Shown piece after piece: positions 5,163-18,945 of a stretch of DNA of 21,893 nucleotides. Below the pieces are notes generated by a model. It ran no database searches. It was not told the DNA's origin and saw only the letters and a list, made by a program, of their open reading frames with translations. Numbering within the stretch: position 1 is the stretch's first letter; each line of letters starts with the position of its first letter. The stretch comes from a virus: positions 1-21,893 of IMG/VR virus record IMGVR_UViG_3300042691_038786. The stretch is one strand, 5' to 3'. The translations under genes and the position numbers were made by a program.

Positions 5163-5726
5163 TTATTTAGTGGCTATAAATGTTCCTCGCTCATTCCGTG
5201 CCAACTTTCTATTGCGAAGACTTTCTGAGCGTTGTTTGTAAAATTCTTCGCCTTTTTCTGGTCCATATTTATCAATATACCATTGCAGAGAGAATCTTCC
5301 CTTTGCTTTTTCACGTTGTTTTTGCTTGGCCTCTTCAGTTTGTTGTTTACCAAACATGCCATTTTTTTCACCAGCAGTAACATGAGACATTTTTTTCCTA
5401 AACGTTTGTAATTTTTCTGGCTGGTTTTTAAATACGTTGCCACCGGAACCTATATACGTGTCATTATATCCATACTTAACAGAATCAAATTGTTTAATTA
5501 GTGCTTCTTCTAATAATTGAGCAGCTTCTTGACTAGGAGCAGTTGCTATAATTTCTTTAGTAAAGTTTTCCCAACCATATTTTCTTATAGCTTTGTATAA
5601 AGTATATTCTTTCCTACTATTTTTAACTTCATACTTATGCTGTGCCATGCGATCTTCAAAATTTTGCGTTCTGCCAATATATACTTTTCCAGACGGCGAT
5701 GTTAGTTTGTAAATTACATGTTCCAT
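5163..5726 (-). CDS. GIY-YIG homing endonuclease, free-standing
   Basis: A 187-residue protein. The GIY-YIG nuclease domain occupies about 1-95: VIYKLTS (4-10), KVYIGRT (14-20), R27, and catalytic Glu at E73/E74 in LLEEALIKQF. A NUMOD3-like DNA-binding motif follows, GEKNGMFGKQQTEEAKQKQ (119-137), and then WYIDKYGPEKGEEFYKQR (149-166), a block also seen in phage homing endonucleases. Such enzymes cut related phage genomes lacking the insertion and spread by recombination. The frame extends upstream to 5867, but ATG 5726 has AAGGAG at 5733-5738 and gives a complete domain. It sits between gp23 and gp13, behind the capsid terminator, with its own candidate promoters. It is not inside an intron or an interrupted gene. 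Confidence 0.93.
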   Translation of the reverse strand: MEHVIYKLTSPSGKVYIGRTQNFEDRMAQHKYEVKNSRKEYTLYKAIRKYGWENFTKEIIATAPSQEAAQLLEEALIKQFDSVKYGYNDTYIGSGGNVFKNQPEKLQTFRKKMSHVTAGEKNGMFGKQQTEEAKQKQREKAKGRFSLQWYIDKYGPEKGEEFYKQRSESLRNRKLARNERGTFIATK

Positions 5727-5829: not shown

Positions 5830-7425
5830 TTAGACGAGCGTGAGCTTGTCGATGTAGATTTTTCCAAAAAATTCGGGTCTTACAATTTTCTTCGCGTAAC
5901 GTGTCATCACGCCACGACGTGGTGTGAAGTTGTTTGGATCGTAGACAAGCGGTGTCATGATCAATGGAATGTATGGAGCATAGACTGCACCAGTTTCCAA
6001 GAATTGTGAACCACGGAAGCCCATGAGCATGACGTTTTCCTTCATGTATGGGTTCTTGTATACTGTGTAACGGTTTTGGAATGAACCAATCTTGGTTACG
6101 CCAGCAGCGAATTCCATCTTGTCACCATCTGTGCCAGCTTGGAAGCCAGGGATGGTTTCAAGAATTGTTGCAACGGTTGGTGAAACAACTGCGAAGTTTG
6201 CACCACCACGCATTGTCAACTGATGGATCTTGTTACTGACCTTTTGCATCTTCTGACCAAGTGTTTGGAACCAGGTCATGTTTGTCCATGCTGTGCCAGC
6301 GAAAGATGAAGCAGCGAATGTTGTGCCGTTCCATACTGAACCGATTTCTGCTGACCAGTATTCGGTTGTTTGTGCTGCATTGATCAACATGTCAAGGATT
6401 TCAAGATCAATTTCTGTTGCAACATAGTCTGAAAGCATACTGGTCAATTCTGCTTCTGCATCAACTGAGTGGTATGCGTTCAAGTCTTGTGCAAGTTCTG
6501 GTGACCATACTGCCTTCAACTTACGTGTCTTGGCAACGATGGTTTCCGAACGGAGTTCCAAATCAATTTGTGGGATTTGGAGATCTGTTGAGCCGTCGCG
6601 ATCTTCGAAGTCGCCACGGTTCGTGTCGGTTGGTTGCTTGCTATAGCCAACACTTGTAAGTGTCTTGCCAACAAGGGTGCTGGTGTTGATGATGAATGTA
6701 ACGTTTGTTCCGTCATACTTTGTGAATTCTGGTAGAACTAATGAAGCAAAGTCAACGCCTGAGCCACTTGGAACGAATGAGCGAACAGCAAGGAAGTCAG
6801 CATTTGGTGTTGAACCACCAAAATTTGAACCAACAGGAACAACATACTTTGCCAAGCTGGCAGTTGCGACGAAATCTTGGTTGAAATTTACATCTGCGAA
6901 TGATGCGGATACAGCAGCAATTGAAACGGTTGAAGATGTAGCATCATTGATGGAATAACCAAAACGACCTGCACCATACAAGCCGCCTGAATCGGTGTTA
7001 CCGAATCCACCCCATGTTGAGCTTGCGGCTGTGCCATAGAGAGAAGTTCCTGATGTTTGGCCGTTGTTTGTGTTGCCATACTTGAAGTCCATGTAGAACA
7101 CAAGACCGGCTGGGAGATTCATTGGTTGAACTGAGACGAAGTTCTTACTTGCGATACTTCCGAATACCTTGCGGACTAATGGAAGTGCAACACCGGCCCA
7201 GTTTTCACCTGCTGTTCCTGCACCTGCTGGATTGGTCTTACTGTTTTCTTGCAAGAGTTGCATTGCTTGGTTTTCAAGCATAACTGCCATACCTTGCTTG
7301 TCATATCCCTTCAAGCCTTCTAGAAGACCTGAGTTTTCCCACTTTGCGGCGAGCTTACGAGTCTTCTCAGTGATGACTTGGTGAGCACTACCGGCTTCGT
7401 TGATAAAATGTGATACATCTGACAT
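5830..7425 (-). CDS. 23: Major capsid protein (gp23)
   Basis: A 531-residue HK97-fold capsid protein. Matches to T4 gp23 include VQPMNLPAGLVFYMDFKYG (residues about 99-117), TRKLKAVWSPELAQDLNAYH near the middle, the stretch MLSDYVATEIDLEILDMLIN, and the C-terminal GAVYAPYIPLIMTPLVYDPN. A predicted maturation cut is L-Q-E60|N61, close to the T4 cut at residue 65; another match, I-N-E10|A11, lies at the very N-terminus. AAGGAG (7436-7441) precedes ATG 7425. Codons are noticeably richer in G/C-ending forms than in the small genes around it, as expected for the most abundant virion protein. The gene ends 28 bases before a perfect terminator hairpin. Confidence 0.98.
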   Translation of the reverse strand: MSDVSHFINEAGSAHQVITEKTRKLAAKWENSGLLEGLKGYDKQGMAVMLENQAMQLLQENSKTNPAGAGTAGENWAGVALPLVRKVFGSIASKNFVSVQPMNLPAGLVFYMDFKYGNTNNGQTSGTSLYGTAASSTWGGFGNTDSGGLYGAGRFGYSINDATSSTVSIAAVSASFADVNFNQDFVATASLAKYVVPVGSNFGGSTPNADFLAVRSFVPSGSGVDFASLVLPEFTKYDGTNVTFIINTSTLVGKTLTSVGYSKQPTDTNRGDFEDRDGSTDLQIPQIDLELRSETIVAKTRKLKAVWSPELAQDLNAYHSVDAEAELTSMLSDYVATEIDLEILDMLINAAQTTEYWSAEIGSVWNGTTFAASSFAGTAWTNMTWFQTLGQKMQKVSNKIHQLTMRGGANFAVVSPTVATILETIPGFQAGTDGDKMEFAAGVTKIGSFQNRYTVYKNPYMKENVMLMGFRGSQFLETGAVYAPYIPLIMTPLVYDPNNFTPRRGVMTRYAKKIVRPEFFGKIYIDKLTLV

Positions 7426-7446: not shown

Positions 7447-8592
7447 TTAAATGATTCCTGCGAGTTCTTGAAGTCTCTTGGCTACCGTATTTTCTACGAT
7501 AACTTCCTTCTTTGGTGCTGTAGATGGAGTTGCCTTTGAAGCAAAACCTTCTGCAACGATTTTCTTGCGTGATGCTGCAAACGTCTTAGCTGCTGTTGAA
7601 AGATTTTCAACAAGTGCTGCATAAACAAGCTTAACTTCACGAACTGTTGTTGCACGATCAAATGACTCAACGATGCGAACACGTTGTTCGTTGGTTAACC
7701 CTTGATTACGGAAGATCTTGTTTGTAAAGAGTAACTTTGAATTTAACAAGTTAACTTCTTGTAGGCGTTCACGTAGGGTATTGATAACCGAACGATGTTG
7801 TGCCAATTCTTTCCTGAGTCTCGCAAGATGAGCAGCCACTTCTTTTTTGTCCATTCCAGGCTTCTTTTGCATACCCATGTCATCGTCATCGGCATGTTTT
7901 TCGCCTTCTTCTTCTTTTTCTTCGGCTTCAAGTTCTGCAAGAATTGCTTCAAGATTTATATTTTCGTCTTCCATTTCTTCCGCGCCGTTTTCCTCTTCTT
8001 CTTCATGTTGCTTTTCAACTACTGGAGCCTTGGAGAATTTTTGGACATCGGAATCTTGTGTATCATGGCTCACTTCCTTCTTCATTTTCCATGATTCGTC
8101 TTTTGCTTCTTCTTCACCTTCTTCTTCCTTCTCTTCTTCAGGAGCATGTTCTGCTTCTGCAAGAGCAGCAATATCTTCTTCTAATTCCTTGATTACTTCG
8201 TCAAGGTCAAAATCACTTTCGGACCAGTCATCATACCAATCCGTGTGACTGTCTTCTTTGTTTTCGCCACCGTCACCGATGCCAGATTCGTCGTTGGCTG
8301 CATCAGATGGTTCCTTATTGTCACCAGTTCCAACTGCTGATGTATCGGCGGGGAAGTCTGCACCTCCTTCTGCCTCGCCTTCTTCATGTGGAAGTTCTTT
8401 TGCTTCTTCAACGTCAACGGCACCTTCTTCAGCCATTTCGGCTTCAACACGAAGACGACGAGCAATCATATCACGAATTTGTGGTGTGATTGCTTCTTCT
8501 AAAACTAGCTTTGCATTTGCAACGGCAGTTTCGCGAACTGCTTCTGCATCGGCAATGGCTTGCTTTAAGAGATTATTTGTGATCTTTGCCAT
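7447..8592 (-). CDS. 22: Prohead core scaffolding protein (gp22-like)
   Basis: A 381-residue, very acidic protein encoded directly before the capsid protein; in T4-like phages this position holds the main core scaffold, which is cut to small peptides by gp21. An N-terminal helix (1-56) leads into an extended Glu/Asp/Gly-rich middle (57-240). The C-terminal helical block is typical of these scaffolds (LRERLQEVNLLNSKLLFTNK, 273-292, and ESFDRATTVREVKLVYAALV, 309-328). Two copies of a short acidic helix lie inside the low-complexity part: FDLDEVIKELEE (128-139) and INLEAILAELEA (212-223). T4 gp22 is 269 aa, so this one is longer through the acidic insert. A strong AAGGAG precedes ATG 8592. The stop is 21 bases before the capsid start. 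Confidence 0.93.
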   Translation of the reverse strand: MAKITNNLLKQAIADAEAVRETAVANAKLVLEEAITPQIRDMIARRLRVEAEMAEEGAVDVEEAKELPHEEGEAEGGADFPADTSAVGTGDNKEPSDAANDESGIGDGGENKEDSHTDWYDDWSESDFDLDEVIKELEEDIAALAEAEHAPEEEKEEEGEEEAKDESWKMKKEVSHDTQDSDVQKFSKAPVVEKQHEEEEENGAEEMEDENINLEAILAELEAEEKEEEGEKHADDDDMGMQKKPGMDKKEVAAHLARLRKELAQHRSVINTLRERLQEVNLLNSKLLFTNKIFRNQGLTNEQRVRIVESFDRATTVREVKLVYAALVENLSTAAKTFAASRKKIVAEGFASKATPSTAPKKEVIVENTVAKRLQELAGII

Positions 8593-8715: not shown

Positions 8716-8931
8716 TTAATTATCGTATTTTTTCTGCCGAGCAAGTCTACGTTCTTCGCGTTTACGTCTCCGCAATGCTTCTTGACGCTTAAATATGCGT
8801 TTTTTTGATGGTTTTAAAAAATGTTCACGGTTCTTAAGTTCTTGAATCAGTTCGGACTTCTTCACCATTTTACTAAATTGCCGCAAAGCTTTGTTTAATT
8901 CATCCTTGCCTTCGTTGACCTTTATATACAT
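8716..8931 (-). CDS. rpsU: Ribosomal protein bS21 homologue, phage-encoded
   Basis: A 71-residue protein, the same length as E. coli S21. It shows the bS21 pattern: VNEGKDELNKALRQFSK (4-20), KSELIQELKNREHFLKPS (25-42), and an Arg/Lys-rich helical C-terminus (KRIFKRQEALRRRKREERR, 44-62). In bacteria bS21 sits on the 30S platform beside the 3' end of 16S rRNA and aids initiation. Phage copies are known, including in a T4-like SAR11 phage and in huge phages, and are thought to replace host S21 and bias translation toward phage mRNAs. A GAGGG site precedes ATG 8931. It is the last gene of the protease unit, directly ahead of the scaffold-capsid unit. Confidence 0.93.
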   Translation of the reverse strand: MYIKVNEGKDELNKALRQFSKMVKKSELIQELKNREHFLKPSKKRIFKRQEALRRRKREERRLARQKKYDN

Positions 8932-9604: not shown

Positions 9605-10189
9605 TTATTTAACTTCGCTTAAGAAATCGTGAATTAATTTATCAATACTATCATATGGAGTAAGACCAGTCGGAGAAGTGTTTTCCGTAATAAATGCCCC
9701 ATATGTTGACGGATTACTAACAATATCAAAACATATAAGTGAAAAATCTTCTTGAACTTCCACCGTGTTTTCTCCCATTTGTCTGACAGAACCCATGCCG
9801 CGAGATGATACACCGAGACGAATATTATTCTTAATTAATTCACGAACAATGTTGCCCGTTGGAGTTGTGAGTATTTCAATATCTCCCCGAACATCATCAC
9901 CTTCTGTCCACAAACCAACAACATTGCAGCATACATTTTTCAAATTCACCACCGGACTTTCTGGATGATCTAATTCACCAAGAGCACGGCGTTGATTTAC
10001 AAAGTTTTGCTTGTATACTGCTGCCTCACGCATTAAAATATCTTTTGGATATACTCGCCCATTTTGATTTTTAGCATTTGCGCGTTGCAATACAACATTT
10101 TTAAGAACGAGTGGCTTGTTGCCATCAATCGTTTCTAATAAAATATTTCTGTCATATTGAAGTTCTGTGTATTCACAAAGTAATGCCAT
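9605..10189 (-). CDS. 21: Prohead core protease (gp21-like serine protease)
   Basis: A 194-residue maturation protease of the HK97/T4 (herpesvirus assemblin) fold. It sits in the prohead core and cleaves scaffold, capsid and internal proteins after (L/I)-x-E. Hallmarks are NQNGRVYPKD (41-50), RRALGELDHPESP (67-79) with catalytic His75, and GVSSRGMGSV (126-135) with the nucleophile at S128 or S129. D155 in CFDIVSNPSTYGAF is a candidate third residue. Length is close to T4 gp21 (212 aa). ATG 10189 has AGAGGAT upstream. Its presence makes the LxE sites in neighbouring proteins meaningful. Confidence 0.96.
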   Translation of the reverse strand: MALLCEYTELQYDRNILLETIDGNKPLVLKNVVLQRANAKNQNGRVYPKDILMREAAVYKQNFVNQRRALGELDHPESPVVNLKNVCCNVVGLWTEGDDVRGDIEILTTPTGNIVRELIKNNIRLGVSSRGMGSVRQMGENTVEVQEDFSLICFDIVSNPSTYGAFITENTSPTGLTPYDSIDKLIHDFLSEVK

Positions 10190-10190
10190 A

Positions 10191-10697
10191 TTATCCTCTC
10201 ATTTCACGGATGCGTCTAGCAAGTTCAATTAACTTGCCTTCTAACCTTGTCATTTGATTTTGTGTGCGCTTCCACAGTGCTTCGTTACTAATACCGTATT
10301 CATTTTTTAATCGGTCGTTATAACGCAATGCCTTTTCAACAGTTTTTAGTTGTCTATTGATTTGTGAAATTGCTTCCCCAATTTTTTGATGAGGAAGTTT
10401 TGTCGCATCGTTGCGATATGCATAATAGTTTTCATTTAACTCCGTTGCCATCTGTTGCAAGGAATGTAATGATTCTTGTAATTTATCACCAGGTTTTGTA
10501 TCCAATGATCCACGGTTTGTCAACGTATATCCAATTTTTCTAGCAAGATCTTTTATTCTTTTTTTAGAATCATGCTTATCACCGGCAAATGCGTTGGGTG
10601 TTAAATAACCAGCAATATTTCCGGTGGTACTAATTTCATTAAGTTCATTTTTTATTAGTTCACGAATAAGTTCGCGCAATTTCTGTTCATTATTCAT
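10191..10697 (-). CDS. Helical protein with LxE-type N-terminus, candidate core protein
   Basis: A 168-residue protein that is helical and mostly basic. The N-terminus MNNEQKLRELIRELIKNELN is an amphipathic helix ending in L-N-E|I (19-22), with an earlier I-R-E|L (11-14); both match the prohead-protease signature. The family is not recognised. It starts three bases after the preceding stop with a poor ribosome binding site, suggesting coupling. Its stop is one base before the protease ATG, and its last codons supply the protease's ribosome binding site. The position directly before gp21 corresponds to gene 68 of T4, so a core or internal protein is the best contextual guess. Confidence 0.82.
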   Translation of the reverse strand: MNNEQKLRELIRELIKNELNEISTTGNIAGYLTPNAFAGDKHDSKKRIKDLARKIGYTLTNRGSLDTKPGDKLQESLHSLQQMATELNENYYAYRNDATKLPHQKIGEAISQINRQLKTVEKALRYNDRLKNEYGISNEALWKRTQNQMTRLEGKLIELARRIREMRG

Positions 10698-11629: not shown

Positions 11630-13525
11630 TTAACCTTCTATTTTATCCTGCGAAGTTATACTTTCTGCTATAATTTGTTTATATTTACTAACCCCCTTTT
11701 GGGGAAGTTTATCTAAAAAGTTTTTTGTTTCTACTGACAAGGTAGATCTCTTATAAGTTTTTTTGTTTTCTTTGTGCCCAAGAGGATCTCTACCTAACGG
11801 ATGGCGATCCGTTCCAAATTTCAACCCTTCTTTTGGTCTACCACCACGATTTCGTACAAGCATTTCTTCAAGCTCATCTTCTTCGTCATCGTCATTTATA
11901 TTCTGCAAACTGTTTAAAATCTGATCTACGTCATCTATCTGTGCTTCCTGTTCATCGGGAGTTTGTTCTTTTTCTCCTGAGTCACCTTCTGCATCGGATG
12001 AAGTTGGTTCAGAAGGTTGTTCTGCAGATGGCTCTCCTTCCGGAGTTGGCATCCCTGGCATAGGCGGTTGTTGTGCAGCCAGCATCTCTTGTTGACGCTT
12101 CAAGTCCTGATCAATTTGTTGACGCTGTTCACGAACTTCTTCTTCTGACATTTCAAGGATGTGCTTGTATACCCAATCTTGTGAAAGAATTTGTACTTGC
12201 CCACCAGTCATATCTCTTGCAAGAGAGAATTTTTGTTGCCACAAATTAATCTTTTCTTGTTCGTACAACGTAGATGGATTGGTCAATGATATTTCAAAAT
12301 TCACCAATTTTTCATCAGTAAATCCCTGAACATATAAATGAATGATTGCAATCTTCGTTAATTCCGAAATCATAATACGCTGAATACGTTCAATCGTGCG
12401 AGCAAATCGAACATCTTGTGCTGCCAACGTTGCCTTACCGTTAATATCTTCTTCGTATCCAATAAATGATTTCGGTACCTTAAACGCAGCAAGAAGTTTT
12501 TTCCGGAGATATTCAATGTCTTCAATTGCATTAAATTGCAACCCTTGCATAGTTTCAATTTCCGTTCCACTATCTTTGCCACGTACTGGAAGATAGAAAT
12601 CTTCCGTAATGTTCATCATATTGTAGCGGAGATTATAATCACCTGTCTTCGGATCAACCAACGGTGTCTTTTTCATCCGATCAATAATGCGATTCATATA
12701 CGTTTCCACTTCAGCCGGTGGAATATTTCCAATATCAATCTTAAATTTGCGCTTGTCTGGTGCTCGCATGATACGATGTACTAACATTGCGTCTTCCATC
12801 AGTTGAAGCTGCTTCCACACACGACGACCACCTTCAATCATGGCTTTTCCATATGGAAGGAAGTTCGTATCGGCCAATAAACGAAAGTGTGCAATTTCAT
12901 AATTATCAAATTCTTTCTTACCCAACGCTAAGAAATCATTTTGAATAGTAAAACGAACCGAGAATGGATTTCCTGGTTCTTCACCTTCGACACGAACAGT
13001 TTCATAAATTGATAATGGAATTGCATTAACAATTCCGTATTCCGGATCAATATCTAGATATAAGAAGAAATCTCCGTATTTTGCCATGTTACGAATCCAC
13101 GGCCAGAGATTAAATTCAACATTTAAAATGTCATAAAATAAATTATGAAGAATTTCTTGGACTTGCTTGTCATCCGTTTTAATACTTAAAATGCGATTAA
13201 ATTCATCTTTTACAGTTGATTCGTCCGCGTAGATATCCAATACCGATGCAATAATAGGATCATTATCCATCATGTCATAATCACGGAACAGTTGAAGACG
13301 TGCGCCTTGGAAAGCAGCGGCTGCTTCATAACGACCGTGATGTGATCCGTAACCGCCTGTTCCTGATTGGTATACTCTGTGATACCGATCTACACCCCGA
13401 CGATTAACGAATGATTGGATTTGATCCGTATCGGCTATTTTTAAACGCTTTCCACCAACATTACGAACAATCGTATTAGTAGAAAATAGCTTTTTTAGCC
13501 GACCAAAAATACTGGTATCTGCCAT
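11630..13525 (-). CDS. 20: Portal vertex protein (gp20)
   Basis: A 631-residue protein forming the dodecameric ring at the head-tail vertex that initiates prohead assembly and holds the terminase. It is recognised by the T4 gp20 core: MEDAMLVHRIMRAPDKRKF (243-261), the IGNIPPAEVETYMNRIIDRM region (265-284), MNITEDFYLPVRGKDSGTEI (304-323), and the crown-proximal region KLLAAFKVPKSFIGYEED (343-360). It is longer than T4 gp20 (524 aa) because of a C-terminal extension from about 470: Gln-rich, Pro/Glu-rich, then strongly acidic (DDDEEDELEE, 545-554), then basic (VRNRGGRPKEG...GRDPLGHKENKK). An I-A-E|S site lies at 619-622 near the end. ATG 13525 has GAGGAG just upstream. It closes a nine-gene unit. 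Confidence 0.97.
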   Translation of the reverse strand: MADTSIFGRLKKLFSTNTIVRNVGGKRLKIADTDQIQSFVNRRGVDRYHRVYQSGTGGYGSHHGRYEAAAAFQGARLQLFRDYDMMDNDPIIASVLDIYADESTVKDEFNRILSIKTDDKQVQEILHNLFYDILNVEFNLWPWIRNMAKYGDFFLYLDIDPEYGIVNAIPLSIYETVRVEGEEPGNPFSVRFTIQNDFLALGKKEFDNYEIAHFRLLADTNFLPYGKAMIEGGRRVWKQLQLMEDAMLVHRIMRAPDKRKFKIDIGNIPPAEVETYMNRIIDRMKKTPLVDPKTGDYNLRYNMMNITEDFYLPVRGKDSGTEIETMQGLQFNAIEDIEYLRKKLLAAFKVPKSFIGYEEDINGKATLAAQDVRFARTIERIQRIMISELTKIAIIHLYVQGFTDEKLVNFEISLTNPSTLYEQEKINLWQQKFSLARDMTGGQVQILSQDWVYKHILEMSEEEVREQRQQIDQDLKRQQEMLAAQQPPMPGMPTPEGEPSAEQPSEPTSSDAEGDSGEKEQTPDEQEAQIDDVDQILNSLQNINDDDEEDELEEMLVRNRGGRPKEGLKFGTDRHPLGRDPLGHKENKKTYKRSTLSVETKNFLDKLPQKGVSKYKQIIAESITSQDKIEG

Positions 13526-13535
13526 AACTCCTCAC

Positions 13536-13871
13536 TTAGTATACGAGAACTTCATCAAGTGCTTTTACAACTGTGCGACAATCAATCTTTTTCTGTTCGC
13601 ACACACGAACGACTTCTTCCTTCAATTCAGCAAGCTTTGCGTTCATGGCAGCAACCAATAATCTCCATTCAGCTAAACTACTTTCAGTTCTAATAAAAGG
13701 CTTTGTATTTAATTGAGAAGCCATCAAATGTGCTTCCGTGCACAATTCCATAATTTTCTTAGCTTGCTCGCCGGTTAATTCAGGATAGAGTTTTTCCATG
13801 ACGGCTTGCACTTTCATTAAATTAACGCGGTTTTCTGGGTTTTCTACCAGCAAGTCTTTTAAGCGAATCAT
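13536..13871 (-). CDS. Small helical protein with MIRL leader, upstream of portal
   Basis: A 111-residue, all-helical protein of unknown function. The leader MIRLKDLLVE is followed by Asn, giving L-V-E|N at 8-11, a match to the prohead-protease signature. It is nearly the same peptide as that of the upstream gene, although the codons differ. The remainder (MEKLYPELTGEQAKKIMEL, then two more helices with C44, C92 and C98) matches no family I can name. The start shares one base with the previous stop and has a strong AAGGAG (13880-13885) inside the upstream gene, so it is likely well translated. It ends ten bases before the portal ATG. The position next to the portal suggests an internal head or core protein. 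Confidence 0.82.
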   Translation of the reverse strand: MIRLKDLLVENPENRVNLMKVQAVMEKLYPELTGEQAKKIMELCTEAHLMASQLNTKPFIRTESSLAEWRLLVAAMNAKLAELKEEVVRVCEQKKIDCRTVVKALDEVLVY

Positions 13872-14281
13872 TATTGCTTCTCCTTATTGAGATGCTTCCG
13901 CATCTTTTTAACATCTTGTGGTTTTGGTGCTGCATTAATATAACCACCTGGAAGGTTTAAGCCAATCCCCCCGGTGGGGGCACCATCTTCTTTTTTCATC
14001 TTTTTTGGTTCTACATGTTGTTTTAGCTTTGTATAATAATCAGGAACTTCGCGTAAATGTGCGGCAGCAATCATTGCTGTTTTCACAAGACTGCCGTCTG
14101 TCACATCTTGATGTTCCAGTTCCACATTCATACCCAAAACAAATTGGTTGAAGTCAAAATCATATCCCATATAATCATAGATACGTTGTGCTTCTTCCTT
14201 ACTAATATAAGTATCCCCACTCATATACGGAGTGTCTTTTTTGGTGTCCGCTTCGGCTAGTAAATTACGGAGACGGATCAT
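13871..14281 (-). CDS. DUF5661-like small protein with MIRL leader
   Basis: A 136-residue protein. The first ten residues, MIRLRNLLAE, are followed by Ala, giving L-A-E|A at 8-11; the T4 internal proteins are likewise cut ten residues in, after A-E. The body contains SKEEAQRIYDYMGYDFDFNQ (27-46) and then MNVELEHQDVT...KTAMIAAAHLREVPDYY (51-83), the pattern I associate with DUF5661, a family of unknown function. The open frame extends upstream to 14353, but that would overlap the previous gene by about 70 nt. ATG 14281 sits one base after the previous stop and gives the leader shared with neighbours. Its TAA shares one base with the next ATG (TAATG). Confidence 0.82.
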   Translation of the reverse strand: MIRLRNLLAEADTKKDTPYMSGDTYISKEEAQRIYDYMGYDFDFNQFVLGMNVELEHQDVTDGSLVKTAMIAAAHLREVPDYYTKLKQHVEPKKMKKEDGAPTGGIGLNLPGGYINAAPKPQDVKKMRKHLNKEKQ

Positions 14282-14282
14282 A

Positions 14283-14705
14283 TTACCATTTGCGGCACGA
14301 CCAATACCGTGCTTTAGTTCTTGGTCCTGGATTAGAACAACGATGACGAGCACGAAAGCTTTTCCGACGAGCCGGAATAGATTTCTTAATCTTCATTTTC
14401 TTGTCACCAAAATTAACTTTCTTAATATTACCGGTAGATGGATCTTTCACGAACACCTTAAATTTTTTTACATCGCCCCGCATCGGTTTACCTAGCGGAA
14501 CTTTGCGTCCACGATATTCCGCTTCGTTCACGTATCCACCAATATGTGCTTCTAAGATATACTTGGCAAGACATGCTGGACAAAACTCACCATCATATAT
14601 ACAATCTTCTTCTAGCGGAACACAGTTTGGAACCATCTTTCCATCCTTGTCTTTCATGCCGACTTGTTTATACCCATCCCAACAGGTTTCTGTAATAGTA
14701 TCCAT
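14283..14705 (-). CDS. Cysteine-rich small protein, basic Trp-containing C-terminus
   Basis: A 140-residue protein. The N-terminal half carries five cysteines (C8, C28, C35, C42, C45) in the blocks CWDGYKQVGMKDKDGKMVPN and CIYDGEFCPAC, suggestive of a zinc or disulfide-stabilised fold. The second half, beginning GRKVPLGKPMRGDVKKFKVF (67-86), includes DPSTGN and ends in a basic block with C122 and C137 (ARHRCSNPGPRTKARYWSC). Prohead-protease-like sites lie between the halves: I-L-E|A (50-53) and a weaker V-N-E|A (59-62). The C-terminal block recurs in small proteins of many large phages; I do not know its function. AAGAG precedes ATG 14705. The stop ends one base before the ATG of the next gene. 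Confidence 0.8.
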   Translation of the reverse strand: MDTITETCWDGYKQVGMKDKDGKMVPNCVPLEEDCIYDGEFCPACLAKYILEAHIGGYVNEAEYRGRKVPLGKPMRGDVKKFKVFVKDPSTGNIKKVNFGDKKMKIKKSIPARRKSFRARHRCSNPGPRTKARYWSCRKW

Positions 14706-14709
14706 AATA

Positions 14710-15033
14710 TTAGCTCTTCTTATATGTTGCTACCATCGTAGGTTTCCCACCAGCATTTCCTGCTTTTCTTTTACGAACAACCGCCGAACGCTTTTCACTT
14801 TTACTCATTGCTGCAGCAGACCGTGCTGGGCGACACTTTGGATATTTTGCACTACCACCCTTGCGTTCTTTTTTACCAGCAGACGCACCACAAGGTGGAT
14901 GCTTACCACTTTTATCTTTACGGGAAATGTCCACCCATTTTTGACGAAGCCATTTACCCAAATTACCCTTGGTTTTATACTTCTCATCAAGTTCCTCTAC
15001 TACTTCATCCAATATTTCAGTTAAACTAATCAT
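14710..15033 (-). CDS. Small basic protein with two cysteines and LxE leader
   Basis: A 107-residue protein. The N-terminal helix MISLTEILDEVVEELDEKYK contains L-D-E|V at 8-11, a prohead-protease match, and resembles the T4 Alt leader in form. The LDEKY motif (15-19) is shared with the lysine-rich protein upstream (24-28 there). The rest is highly basic: C48 in HPPCGASAGKK, C67 in YPKCRPARSAAAMSKSEKR, and a tail RKRKAGNAGGKPTMV. This looks like a small phage family of unknown function with a potential metal site (C48/C67 with nearby His45). It overlaps the preceding stop (ATGA) and lies four bases before the next ATG. It is probably a structural or internal head protein by context. Confidence 0.8.
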   Translation of the reverse strand: MISLTEILDEVVEELDEKYKTKGNLGKWLRQKWVDISRKDKSGKHPPCGASAGKKERKGGSAKYPKCRPARSAAAMSKSEKRSAVVRKRKAGNAGGKPTMVATYKKS

Positions 15034-15461
15034 ACAGATTTAGATTTAGTTGTGCCACCGCGCTTCCGTTTTTTACGACCGGCGCAATGTGCTTTTTGAC
15101 TAAAACCTTTCGGATTACTACAGTCAATAGACTTTTTATATTTCTTGGTCCACTTCTCGCCCCTCTTCCATCCACCACCCATACTCTTATATTTTTTTGC
15201 TGCCCAGAGATTGGCGTATGCAGATGGATATACTTTGAATTTTGCACGAGCAGCAGCTTTTGCTTTTGCCCATTTATCGGGACTAGTTGGCGTATTCTTT
15301 TCTAGCAATGCTACCAACTCTTCAATTTTCTTTTTATGTGGATCGGGATTGTGCGTTGAATATGTATCAAAATCTGGCTGTGGTGCGCCGAATGTGTCTC
15401 CGGTATATTCGTTACAATTTTCGCCCTCGCACAAATCTTCATAAAAATCTTTGTATTGCAT
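15030..15461 (-). CDS. Basic cysteine-containing protein, DUF5872-like
   Basis: A 143-residue protein of unknown function. The acidic N-terminus MQYKDFYEDLCEGENC contains L-C-E|G (10-13), a match to the prohead-protease signature. The central motif KAKAAARAKFKVYPSAYANL (66-85) followed by WAAKKYK is the hallmark of a small family found in phages and large DNA viruses that I believe is DUF5872. The C-terminus, CSNPKGFSQKAHCAGRKKRK (114-133), is strongly basic with two cysteines, and two more cysteines (C11, C16) lie at the N-terminus. The start follows the previous stop by one base with no clear Shine-Dalgarno, so translation is probably coupled. The stop overlaps the next start (ATGA). A virion-internal, nucleic-acid-contacting role is my inference. 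Confidence 0.8.
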   Translation of the reverse strand: MQYKDFYEDLCEGENCNEYTGDTFGAPQPDFDTYSTHNPDPHKKKIEELVALLEKNTPTSPDKWAKAKAAARAKFKVYPSAYANLWAAKKYKSMGGGWKRGEKWTKKYKKSIDCSNPKGFSQKAHCAGRKKRKRGGTTKSKSV

Positions 15462-15462
15462 G

Positions 15463-15825
15463 TTATTTAAGAAATTTGAGTTTGTATATTGTGCTTGAAA
15501 TCAACCCTGAAATCTCATCTACCGTATTATTCAATTCACCATCTTGTGGTAATGTTGTGCGAATACCATCAACAAACTTTTGCAATCCAACAAAATACTT
15601 TAGTGCGGAATCATCTTCAAAAATTTGTTCTGACATTCCATAACCACGAATAATTCCATAACGACCCTGTGCCATTTCTGCATAGGCGTCAATTAATTCT
15701 ACGATATCATCGTAATATTCATTCAACGCCTTGTGTGCAGCAAACGATGATGTTTGTAAATGAAAAATATGTGCTTGTGTTCTACTAGACATCAATGTGC
15801 CAAGAAACTTTCCCAACGGTTCCAT
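15463..15825 (-). CDS. Small Dps/ferritin-like four-helix protein
   Basis: A 120-residue, mostly helical protein. The segment HIFHLQTSSFAAHKALNEYY begins at residue 19 and continues to A49-E50. H19, H31, D46 and E50 reproduce the spacing of the E. coli Dps ferroxidase residues H51, H63, D78 and E82 exactly; the D67 position is Asn35. The second half (about 72-120) reads as two more helices, with hydrophobic spacing like the Dps C-terminal pair. This suggests a minimal Dps-like fold that could bind iron or DNA. It resembles a phage family of unknown function that I believe is DUF5856. It lacks the LxE leader seen in its neighbours. ATG 15825 follows AAGGAA and sits one base after the preceding stop. 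The gene call is firm; the Dps link is an inference from spacing alone. Confidence 0.8.
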   Translation of the reverse strand: MEPLGKFLGTLMSSRTQAHIFHLQTSSFAAHKALNEYYDDIVELIDAYAEMAQGRYGIIRGYGMSEQIFEDDSALKYFVGLQKFVDGIRTTLPQDGELNNTVDEISGLISSTIYKLKFLK

Positions 15826-15826
15826 A

Positions 15827-16537
15827 TTACTTTCCTTTGTGTGATTTGTAGCCTTTGCCCTTCATGTAGTATGCAAGTGCCCACGGGTTGTCAATTTTAT
15901 CTGAATGTTTTTTCATGGCCTTTACAGTACCTTCCCAACCTTCCGGTGCCTTTTCATTCATGGCATCAGGTGATGTTGGTTCTGGCGTAGTTGGCTTATT
16001 ATTTTCGTGATAATTGTTTGCTGCTTGTGAAATGAAATTAGCAGCATTGGTAATGTGATCCTGAATCCATGCCGGAATATCCTTTTCTTCTTGACCAAGC
16101 TTACCTTTTAGATCATTTGCATGCTGAATAATCGTATCTAATGAATTATTAGCCATTGATACTTCGTGGTCATTTGAAGGAGTTGGCTTGTCAGCTTCTT
16201 TCAAATTATTTTCCTTTCCCATCGACTTGCCAATTGCATCACGACGATTTTTCAAATATTTATCGGTTGAATCTACATCGCCGTCATTGTCAATATCCGC
16301 ATCTTCTTGTCCAACCTTATCTAATGCTTCAATAAATTGATCAATTTCATCAAGCTCTTCCATCGTGCATTGACTACCTTCGCGAAGTTTTTTGAGTGTC
16401 ATTGCAATGCGTTCTTTTTTACCAAGCTTTTTACCTTTTTCCGCATCAGCCTGTACTTTTTCTACTGGAACAGTTTCATCCTGTTCTGCTAATGGGGCAG
16501 ATTTTAAATCTACTAATCCGGCTAAACGTATCATCAT
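15827..16537 (-). CDS. EF-hand/dockerin-type calcium-loop protein
   Basis: A 236-residue protein. It starts MMIRLAGLV and has L-A-E|Q at 16-19, matching the prohead-protease signature; a second match is L-K-E|A at 112-115. The stretch [12 protein letters not shown] (81-92) is a complete 12-residue EF-hand/dockerin loop with Asp at positions 1, 3, 5, 7, 9 and 12, Gly at 6 and Val at 8. Two further recognisable blocks follow: [20 protein letters not shown] (153-172) and a C-terminal block around [12 protein letters not shown]...[13 protein letters not shown] (200-229). I recall both blocks from small proteins of other large phages but cannot name the families. ATG 16537 overlaps the preceding stop (ATGA). 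The adjacent ATG 16534 has better spacing to GGAG and may be the true start, giving MIRLAGLV. The function is unknown; calcium binding is inferred from the loop. Confidence 0.85.
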
Positions 16538-17304
16538 GATTCTCCAGCATGAATGGATTTAATAATTTCTTTTAATTTAGTTGATTTCTTTTCACCTGAC
16601 GCAGACGCTTTTTTAGCCGCCGCTCTTTCTCTTGCTTTTTTTGATGCAGCCTTTTCTTTGGATGTTTTTATTGGCATTCCAACAAGCTTTTCAAGATCTT
16701 TACCAAGACCTTTTGTCACCGCGCCTCGTTTAGCTGCAGCAGATCTCTTTTTAGCAGACGCGGTAGCTTTTTTACCAGAAGGCTTGGTAGCCGGTGCCGC
16801 TTTCTTTTCCGGTTCAGTAGATGCTGGCTCTCCCTTTGGTTCTGCAAAAAGATCTGTTTGCGACGGGTCAGTTGGTTTCTTTCTGGATCTTTTCTTTGGT
16901 TCGGTCTTTTCTGGTTCAGCTTTTCCAGACGCTGCTCCTTTCTTTTTCTTTGTTTTTGGTGGTGGGAAAGCTTTTCCTTTAATTGCCCAGTCACTTGCCA
17001 TCGCCCACACAAATGAATTCATAGTTTTTTCATCGGTAGCATCGCGGTCGTGCGATGCGGCCCATCTAATAAATGCTGCACGAAGTTTATTTTTATCTTC
17101 CTTATCACCACTCCCGCCTTTAAGAACCGAAAATATTTTATTACCTAAAGTATGGCGCTTGGCAATTTGTGCTTTGGTCATCGTTCTACCATGAACAAGC
17201 GGCACAGTTCCCGCTGATGTATATTTTTCATCTAATGTTGCAATTTCTGCAAGCGCAGCTTCTATTTCTTCAACAATTATTTCTTCTAACTCACTGCGTG
17301 TCAT
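16534..17304 (-). CDS. Lysine/alanine-rich, histone-H1-like protein with capsid-targeting-like N-terminus
   Basis: A 256-residue protein. The N-terminus ([20 protein letters not shown]) is an amphipathic helix with two matches to the (L/I)-x-E prohead-protease signature, after E12 and E20. A folded, Trp-containing region follows (about 25-115), then a long low-complexity stretch (about 117-240) rich in Lys, Ala, Pro and Ser with motifs such as [20 protein letters not shown], similar in composition to linker histones. I infer a DNA-contacting virion-internal protein; the family is not recognised. An upstream ATG (17331) exists, but ATG 17304 has GGAG (17312-17315) at seven bases and gives the leader shared with neighbouring genes. 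It is the first gene of its unit, behind a candidate promoter at 17338-17345, and overlaps the next ATG by four bases (ATGA). Confidence 0.85.
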
Positions 17305-17364: not shown

Positions 17365-18945
17365 CTATGAAATTAGCCATCGAAGGTCTTCTTTTTCTGT
17401 TCCATTTAAACTCATTTCGTATGGATTTTCCTGAACCCCGCCAACTTTTACAAATGGCATAGAATTAAATGCGGTCTTGTCAAGAGAAAGCTTGGTCAAT
17501 TCAATTCCCTGTTGACGTAACCGTAATGCTGTATCCCGTACCCACAGGCCAATACCCAGCGCCAATATCAAGTCGTCATTATACCCAACCAACGCTTCTG
17601 CCTTTCCATTTTTCCAAATAAACGTTTCGAATTCCGCCATTGTTCTCGATGACCGAACCGTTATACCTTGTTCTCGCATGTATTCTTCCAATTTTGCAAT
17701 TAATAACGGTCTTGTTCGTGAAGAAATGGTAAATCCTGGCTTCATATTTCTTTCAGAAATATAATTTCTACTGGTAATTTGATTTTCTACATCCACATAA
17801 TGCATGTCTGCCGACATATAAAATAAATTTTTATATCCCCGATCTATTACTTGTTGAATAGATGCCCATCCAATTGAACTATTATCGGGTATCAATAACG
17901 CATCATTATATTGTGTAGCAAGTGATACCATTAAATTACCAAATTCTTTAGGTGGCAACTTGCCTTTATATTCTGCGACCTGAACGGATCGCTCTGCTTC
18001 AATAATATGCACGGTAGAATAGTCTTCTCCGTCTCCACGAGCCACGTCAGCCGCCGCAATATATGTTTTTGATGGATCGGGGTATTCCCATATCCACAAG
18101 TTTGAATCAAATCCTTGCTTTGCAAGTGGCTCCATTACATACGTATTTTTATAAAATTCTATAATATCAGGAGAAACAACTGTATTACCTGAAAAGATAA
18201 ATGAGGCATCGTGTTCCTGTGCCGATAGCATTTCCCCGAGCTTTTCTGTTTGGCTATCACGCCATGCCTGATCGCGCTCTGGGTGCACTCGCCAATCTAA
18301 TAGTATTGGATTGAATCCATTGTTCTTGGATTCCGCACCCTGCCACATTTTATGGAAGAAATTACCTACGCCGTTTGGAGTAGAAATCAATACTGCTTTA
18401 CCACCTGTAGACAATGTGGATGATGCGGCTGTCCAGATAATATCCGCATCTTCAATAAATGCACACTCGTCAAGAATCAAAAGAGACAATGCTTCAGAAC
18501 GACCAGCATCTTTACTACTCGCCACAGCTTTAATCTGTGATCCGTTGGCAAATCGCATAGAAAGTTTATTATCTTCTACACAATTACCTCGTAGCCACAC
18601 AGGAAGATTGGCATGCATAAAGCGAACTTTGGTTACAAGATTTTTAGCAGTTTCTTGTTTCGTCGCAATAACTAAAATGTTTTTATCAGTGTGAAATAGC
18701 ATGAGCCACAAAGCATATCCGGCCACCAATGTAGAAAATCCTAACTGACGCCCTTTGAGAACAATATTATAATCATGCTCTTCGAAATCTTTCATCGCTG
18801 TTACTTGATATGGGTATAAATCAAACAACACCCGACCACGAACCGGGTGCTGTATGTAAGAGTATCTGCTTAAAAAATAATGCGGATTAACTGCACACTT
18901 TTTATATTCTAACTTAATAACTTCTTTAATATTTGCTGATGACAT
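17365..18945 (-). CDS. 17: Terminase large subunit (gp17-like, ATPase plus nuclease)
   Basis: A 526-residue DNA-packaging motor that docks on the portal, translocates DNA with ATP and cuts the concatemer. The ATPase P-loop is KGRQLGFST (64-72): the lysine sits at the beginning, as in the deviant Walker A of lambda gpA, and the T4-type lysine position is Phe70. Walker B is LLILDE (155-160, D159 E160), and the coupling motif is LISTPNG (186-192). The RNase H-like nuclease has D300 in AAADVARGDGEDYS, D354 in LIPDNSS and D457/D458 in YNDDLILALG. Length is shorter than T4 gp17 (610 aa), mainly through a short N-terminus. ATG at 18945 has an AGAAGG site upstream and follows the previous stop by one base. 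Recognition is firm. Confidence 0.97.
   Translation of the reverse strand: MSSANIKEVIKLEYKKCAVNPHYFLSRYSYIQHPVRGRVLFDLYPYQVTAMKDFEEHDYNIVLKGRQLGFSTLVAGYALWLMLFHTDKNILVIATKQETAKNLVTKVRFMHANLPVWLRGNCVEDNKLSMRFANGSQIKAVASSKDAGRSEALSLLILDECAFIEDADIIWTAASSTLSTGGKAVLISTPNGVGNFFHKMWQGAESKNNGFNPILLDWRVHPERDQAWRDSQTEKLGEMLSAQEHDASFIFSGNTVVSPDIIEFYKNTYVMEPLAKQGFDSNLWIWEYPDPSKTYIAAADVARGDGEDYSTVHIIEAERSVQVAEYKGKLPPKEFGNLMVSLATQYNDALLIPDNSSIGWASIQQVIDRGYKNLFYMSADMHYVDVENQITSRNYISERNMKPGFTISSRTRPLLIAKLEEYMREQGITVRSSRTMAEFETFIWKNGKAEALVGYNDDLILALGIGLWVRDTALRLRQQGIELTKLSLDKTAFNSMPFVKVGGVQENPYEMSLNGTEKEDLRWLIS

Follow-up and report, generated by a model that had tools for sequence, protein, structure and literature searches.

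Capsid-targeting-like leaders on small proteins encoded between terminase and portal in an uncultured T4-like phage and its relatives

Between the terminase and portal genes of the virus in IMG/VR record IMGVR_UViG_3300042691_038786 (21,893 nt, analysed at its full length and called the window here) lies a block of small minus-strand genes, three of which (A, B and D) begin with a clear leader that ends in (L/I)-x-E. The internal proteins of phage T4 carry an N-terminal capsid-targeting sequence (CTS) of about ten residues, which gp21 cuts after this same motif. We consider it very probable that the leaders act as capsid-targeting propeptides of the T4 type, that a gp21-type protease takes them off, and that the cargo attached to them is packaged in the head. 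This capsid-targeting interpretation, first advanced in a sequence-only reading of the window, is supported by our analysis. The starts and peptides quoted in that reading are all in the sequence, on the minus strand at 13871, 14281, 15033, 15461 (DLCE↓G, the arrow marking the cut), 16534 (MIRLAGLV, with LAE↓Q at residue 18), 17304 and 10697 (ELNE↓I). Their quality is uneven. Judged by sequence against the CTS form, in which 10-19 residues precede the cut and the last three read (L/I)-x-E, the sites of A, B and D are clear and those of E and C (6 residues in C) are backed by relatives, whereas those of G, H and a gene at 10191-10697 are weak. The better leaders and the genes that bear them are as follows.

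13842-13871, minus strand: gene A leader MIRLKDLLVE, with a predicted cut ahead of N11 (alignment of 29 family A sequences)
13536-13871, minus strand: gene A (111 aa); in the model the body is predicted as four helices and the leader has no confident fold
14252-14281, minus strand: gene B leader MIRLRNLLAE, predicted cut before A11 (sequence and relatives)
13871-14281, minus strand: gene B, DUF5661 protein (Pfam PF18905, E=8e-14)
14688-14705, minus strand: gene C short leader MDTITE, predicted cut before T7 (junction in relatives)
14283-14705, minus strand: gene C, basic (+16), with a CWDGYKQVGMK motif (sequence and composition)
15004-15033, minus strand: gene D leader MISLTEILDE, predicted cut before V11 (sequence and relatives)
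14710-15033, minus strand: gene D, DUF5872-like, basic (+17) (family searches and composition)
15426-15461, minus strand: gene E leader MQYKDFYEDLCE, predicted cut before G13 (junction supported by relatives)
15030-15461, minus strand: gene E, basic (+15) (composition)

Gene C reads MDTITE↓TCWDGYKQVG in the window and MDNITE↓ACWEGYRQVG in relatives, and its junction is one at which a full leader can be joined, because some relatives have MIRLADILCE↓ACWDGYKQVG. For gene E, relatives place MKYTEFFKE↓YAGDTF and MKYTDFFNE↓YGNDNF ahead of the same body, a form close to the MKTYQEFIAE↓A of T4.

The leader peptide is conserved in sequences that have otherwise diverged widely. In 29 members of family A, with identity falling to 30%, only L4, E10, R15 and N55 are invariant (the alignment leaves out homologues with other or over-extended N-termini, for example a fused one in locus L024), and the leaders themselves differ (MIRLKDLLVE, MALSLKSILRE, MSKTTSLKTLLRE and MIKLTDLITE) but LxE stays. 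Among 25 sequences, 42-88% identical, of a kinase-like cargo unrelated to A, the invariant leader residues are I2, L4 and E10. Residues 7 and 8 are hydrophobic in the leaders, and the positions conserved here, 4, 7, 8 and 10, coincide with the targeting and processing residues of the T4 IPIII leader, for which mutagenesis ties 4 and 7 to targeting, 8 and 10 to processing (review of Black's work, PMC9026906). In an AlphaFold model of the kinase-like family the body scores near 90 in pLDDT, and the boundary of disorder falls at the predicted cut, since residues 1-9 lie below 50. The leader also changes less than its body (pN/pS 0.16 versus 0.21) while synonymous change is near saturation, so the peptide itself has been retained. 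This bears on whether the leader arose by recent duplication of one gene's 5' end and was inherited without function. Duplication or recombination does spread the leader, because tandem copies of B and truncated copies of E with a new leader occur in related genomes; but near-saturated synonymous sites, constraint at the protein level and the divergence of leaders within family A around a fixed LxE leave such an origin very improbable. The sequence-only reading had argued for retention of the peptide from the different codons of the leaders, a difference that we find in the sequence.

Another question is whether short N-termini rich in L and E had been chosen after the fact. Inside the window the contrast is not significant (leaders on 5/17 genes versus 0/9, p=0.09), and relatives were therefore needed. 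We used a leader pattern (a hydrophobic residue, two residues, two hydrophobics, one residue and Glu, near the start) that was devised after leaders had been seen, on genes called with a home-made caller that missed D and misplaced the start of C in the window. Across six genomes this pattern is found in 30 of the 111 genes from the terminase large subunit (TerL) to the major capsid protein (MCP) and in 7 of the 672 elsewhere; counted by gene family, as is proper because the genes of related genomes are not independent, the figures are 10/23 and 6/378 (p=3e-10). At internal positions the pattern has a background of 0.6-0.8%. A plain LxE with its Glu at residues 7-12, which should be equally common at other N-termini if it had no bearing on the head, occurs in 44/111 head-region genes versus 45/672 elsewhere in the same genomes (p=5e-18). 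As a positive control, the leader pattern picked 12 of 292 called genes in T4 (150 kb), among them ipII, ipIII, alt and gp24, whose products are known gp21 substrates; ipI was missed. T4 gene 61.1 (L463:18966-19130) starts MKTFKEFIKE↓D and possibly has an unrecognised capsid-targeting sequence.

We then scanned IMG/VR for MIRLxDLLxE with Arg encoded as CGN, taking MIRLxDLLxK as the control. The Glu form occurs in at least 120 stretches and the Lys form in 16 in the whole collection. Of the Glu matches listed, 117/122 stand at plausible gene starts, against 3/16 of the Lys matches, which are almost all spurious. Chance selection is refuted for A, B and D by this control together with the six-genome enrichment, and for the leaders as a set we give it hardly any credence; it may still account for G, H and 10191-10697, where the sites are weak. 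The expected tie to the protease was also found: phrog_207, the gp21-type family, is present in 20/50 leader records among the matches listed and in 3/44 records drawn at random (p=1.4e-4). When the same comparison is confined to records of at least 100 kb, the figures are 10/11 and 0/5. A single 167-kb record has a leader match without phrog_207, possibly through a chance match or an incomplete genome. Had relatives without gp21 kept the leader, the proposed link would have failed; instead, cargo D homologues from four Pelagibacter phages, from 023Pt_psg01 and from DSL-LC04 (L416-L421) start directly at the domain, without a leader, and a phrog_207 search in those six records found none. These leaderless homologues are a clean control.

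The same results speak to the idea that the N-terminal peptide docks its protein in some other assembly step, involving tail, portal or membrane, LxE being no protease site but a by-product of an L/E-rich helix. Some leader genes are lysozyme-like, LxE is common in such helices, and TerL too has one near its start. Against these stand the invariance of E10 in diverged families, the rarity of Lys in place of Glu, the association with gp21 and the exact agreement with the T4 targeting and processing residues, and we regard this alternative as improbable.

The protease that the sequence-only reading placed in the same window is indeed there (phrog_207, E=2e-49), within a head module whose main genes are listed here.

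9605-10189, minus strand: gp21-type prohead protease (phrog_207, E=2e-49; alignment)
5830-7425, minus strand: MCP (phrog_138, E=7e-71), with the start MSDVSHFINE↓AG and the maturation site QLLQE60↓N
7447-8592, minus strand: acidic scaffold/core protein, net charge -47, gp22-like by position and composition
11630-13525, minus strand: portal protein, without a leader (phrog_213, E=4e-68)
17365-18945, minus strand: terminase large subunit, bounding the small-gene block (phrog_2, E=2e-46)

In a 17-sequence alignment of the protease, GELDHPES and SSRG are invariant, as are H75 and S129, which places the enzyme in the gp21-type family. Close to its start the window's enzyme has LLCE↓Y, a site that reads LLCE↓Y or LLVE↓Y across its group, and FLSE↓VK stands close to the end; T4 gp21 has LIE-9 and a C-terminal cut (PMC9026906). 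All 20 MCP variants keep (L/I)xE↓(N/A/S/V) at residue 60, where T4 gp23 is cut, and the P1' residues that follow the leaders are the same as those at this maturation site. These sites in the protease and the MCP (including its N-terminus), like the leader of gene C, had been overlooked in the sequence-only reading. A PHROG search with the scaffold/core protein gave no meaningful match.

Nearly all coding is on the minus strand, in the order nucleotidyltransferase-like gene, terminase large subunit, the eight small genes H, G, F, E, D, C, B and A, portal, genes of 288 and 168 aa, gp21-type protease, three small genes, acidic scaffold, MCP, neck genes and tail sheath. Among isolated phages, Microcystis phage Mel-JY01 and Flavobacterium phage immuto come closest in their portals (51-54% identity). 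Each has its terminase directly beside the portal, and the block is therefore not universal. Both nevertheless encode the protease and leader-like proteins, for example at 24569 in immuto (MIKLIDLLTE↓S) and at 60276 and 62056 in Mel-JY01. Our sample of relatives includes 80 IMG/VR loci with portals closer than those of isolated phages. The leader-like start of the MCP (7396-7425) is kept in its clade, not in immuto or Mel-JY01. The head module also holds a ribosomal protein S21-like gene at 8716-8931 (phrog_21469, E=1e-7), and a GIY-YIG-like open reading frame at 5163-5726, between the major capsid gene and a neck gene, is probably a homing endonuclease, judging by its appearance.

The rest of the block, and the gene adjoining the protease, present a less uniform picture.

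15463-15825, minus strand: gene F, DUF5856/Dps-like, without a leader (Pfam PF19174, E=2e-22; phrog_858, E=3e-25)
16484-16537, minus strand: conserved N-terminus of gene G, weak candidate cut before Q19 (relatives)
15827-16537, minus strand: gene G, 236 aa; start at 16534 or one codon earlier, 16537 (sequence)
17245-17304, minus strand: N-terminus of gene H, of another leader type, with IIVE↓E and ALAE↓I as candidate cuts (sequence and relatives)
16534-17304, minus strand: gene H, Lys/Ala-rich, strongly basic (+25) (composition)
10191-10697, minus strand: 168-aa gene adjoining the protease, with three LxE sites (residues 9, 13 and 21); another leader type

In gene G, MIRLTGLVxL is kept in relatives but LxE comes later and varies, and the sites of G, H and 10191-10697 are weaker in general, with E-rich bodies or N-termini of another type. 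That second type (for example MKxxxLRxxIRE) recurs on other head-module genes, including 16534-17304, 10191-10697 and homologues in L002-L081. DUF5856 homologues of the leaderless gene F adjoin leader clusters in genomes G056 and G040, and T4 rI.-1 carries the same family annotation. The bodies of C, D, E and H are strongly basic, those of A and B neutral and that of G acidic. Searches of the mature bodies of A-H against Pfam and PHROG gave no match to T4 IPI-III or Alt, and the gene A model, searched for similar folds, matched generic helical bundles, none of them informative. The bodies had been described as unrelated; BLAST bears this out, apart from weak similarity among the basic parts of D, E and H.

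Beyond the window, the leader sits on a wide range of proteins. Leader-bearing proteins from all sources form 94 body clusters, 63 of them with a strict leader, though some are certainly spurious. In genome G046 (L258:7760-10599) seven consecutive small genes each have a leader of the MIKLKSLLxE type ahead of unrelated bodies, and G056 has a similar cluster adjoining a DUF5856 gene. The earlier suggestion of an unusually large set of internal proteins holds for this wider group, with some 10-14 strong leaders in G046, G056 and G040; the window itself has five good and three weak leaders, to be set beside IPI, IPII, IPIII, Alt and gp24 in T4. In G056, a ATATTTAT motif, perhaps a promoter or initiation element, lies within 30 bases upstream of 6/16 leader genes versus 22/219 others; the enrichment is not present in all genomes examined, and for this reason we do not build on it.

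Most cargo is without a known domain. Pfam matches comprise Zeta_toxin in three, Phage_lysozyme2 (one with a GDSL domain), a phage lysozyme with LysM, a cell-wall hydrolase with LysM and a cupin. One leader-bearing family occurs at 39 IMG/VR loci (L424-L462) and at L281:7624-8163; a search of 50,697 phage records found no counterpart in isolated phages. Its predicted fold is that of a small kinase: Foldseek ranks protein kinases highest for its model, along with aminoglycoside phosphotransferases (best E=5e-4, probability 0.99), and its motifs GDNGxVY, FK and DLDxDFxxDNVM...LVDW are consistent with them. PDB sequence searches with the kinase-like and ART-like cargo gave nothing useful, and the kinase fold was seen by fold comparison only. 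The ART identity of several cargo proteins, suggested by LYHAT, LYHFT, VYHYT and RVWHVT motifs, was not confirmed by Pfam; in a different protein a Tox-ART-HYD1 match was weak (E=8e-4, short of the family cut-off), and one ART-like cargo, when its relatives were sought, matched only itself. Different genes have gained or lost the leader, which is a portable module. At L002 a 51-aa truncated copy of the end of gene E is fused directly to a fresh leader (MIKLVDIILE↓KWTKKYKKS), a sign of leader shuffling.

If the propeptide step is granted, the fate of the bodies can still be read differently: the leader proteins could be core or shell parts, like T4 gp67, gp68 and gp24, trimmed or destroyed by the protease in building the head and not delivered as cargo. 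The T4 vertex protein gp24 carries a leader of near-identical form (MAKINELLRE↓S), the MCP of the window has its own leader-like start, and gene A, next to the portal in nearly all relatives, is so constant and so near it that it may be structural. Gp24, however, is a shell protein and the block bodies match no capsid families; most leader bodies are accessory and swapped between genomes, enzyme-like domains (Zeta_toxin, lysozymes, the kinase fold) among them, and C, D, E and H are basic like the T4 internal proteins. We judge a purely head-building role possible but rather unlikely.

Several observations nevertheless weigh against packaged cargo behind every leader. G, H and 10191-10697 fit a propeptide poorly, the leader of gene B is missing in part of its family though gp21 is present, and some lysozyme-like cargo might be tail parts. 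The amphipathic helix proposed for the leaders is weakly borne out: their hydrophobic moment, 0.35-0.40 against a background of 0.29±0.15, is unexceptional. Because gp24 has the same leader, the peptide marks entry into the prohead and not necessarily ejection.

The closest parallel to the window's leaders is with T4 IPI, IPII, IPIII and Alt (MKTYQEFIAE↓A, MELITELFDE↓D), which share the ten-residue leader with hydrophobic residues 4, 7 and 8, Glu 10 and the cut motif, a gp21 protease in the genome, and small, often basic bodies. Here, unlike in T4, there is an MI(R/K)L consensus, the bodies are not homologous by family search, several leaders share one terminase-portal block, and the wider group has many more cargo families. 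Several inner-head and ejection proteins of the giant phages phiKZ and SPN3US likewise have N-terminal propeptides cut by a gp21-family protease, and gp53 and gp54, paralogues that have diverged, share the same N-terminus; most of those propeptides, unlike the leaders here, exceed 100 residues and have another cut motif, only that of gp45 being short at 20 residues (PMC5694885). Our literature search found no account of this leader in environmental phages and no virion proteomics for immuto, though absence is not proof. The mechanism is known from T4; what appears to be new is how widely and how modularly it is used, since in uncultured T4-like phages one leader precedes dozens of bodies, including runs of adjacent genes.

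On the T4 model, the first ten residues, with hydrophobics at 4, 7 and 8 and Glu at 10, would dock each protein on the scaffold core during prohead assembly, and the shell would close around it, enclosing the cargo. The gp21-type protease would then cut after (L/I)-x-E, the motif also used on the MCP; the leader would depart and the mature body, freed inside the head, would stay with the DNA; the basic ones, C, D, E and H, probably lie on it. In T4, Alt and the internal proteins reach the host together with the DNA, and at least some cargo here would do the same, although ejection is less certain than packaging.

A broader reading, towards which we lean only slightly, is that MI(R/K)LxxLLxE serves a large uncultured T4-like group as a general and portable signal for head entry, set on dozens of unrelated bodies, often in neighbouring genes, and marking virion-borne effectors (zeta-toxin-like and ART-like candidates, peptidoglycan hydrolases and the kinase-fold family). 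If this is true, the leader could be read as the signal peptide of what phage heads deliver. Because it stands on dozens of protein types in relatives, it can pick out proteins that are probably packaged and possibly delivered to the host, and its recognition from sequence, together with a matching protease in the genome, would yield a list of probable head-packaged proteins in uncultured phages. Such a list has value since the T4 internal proteins are a handful of cases; the kinase-fold, zeta-toxin-like and hydrolase cargo are candidates for roles in early host takeover or counter-defence.

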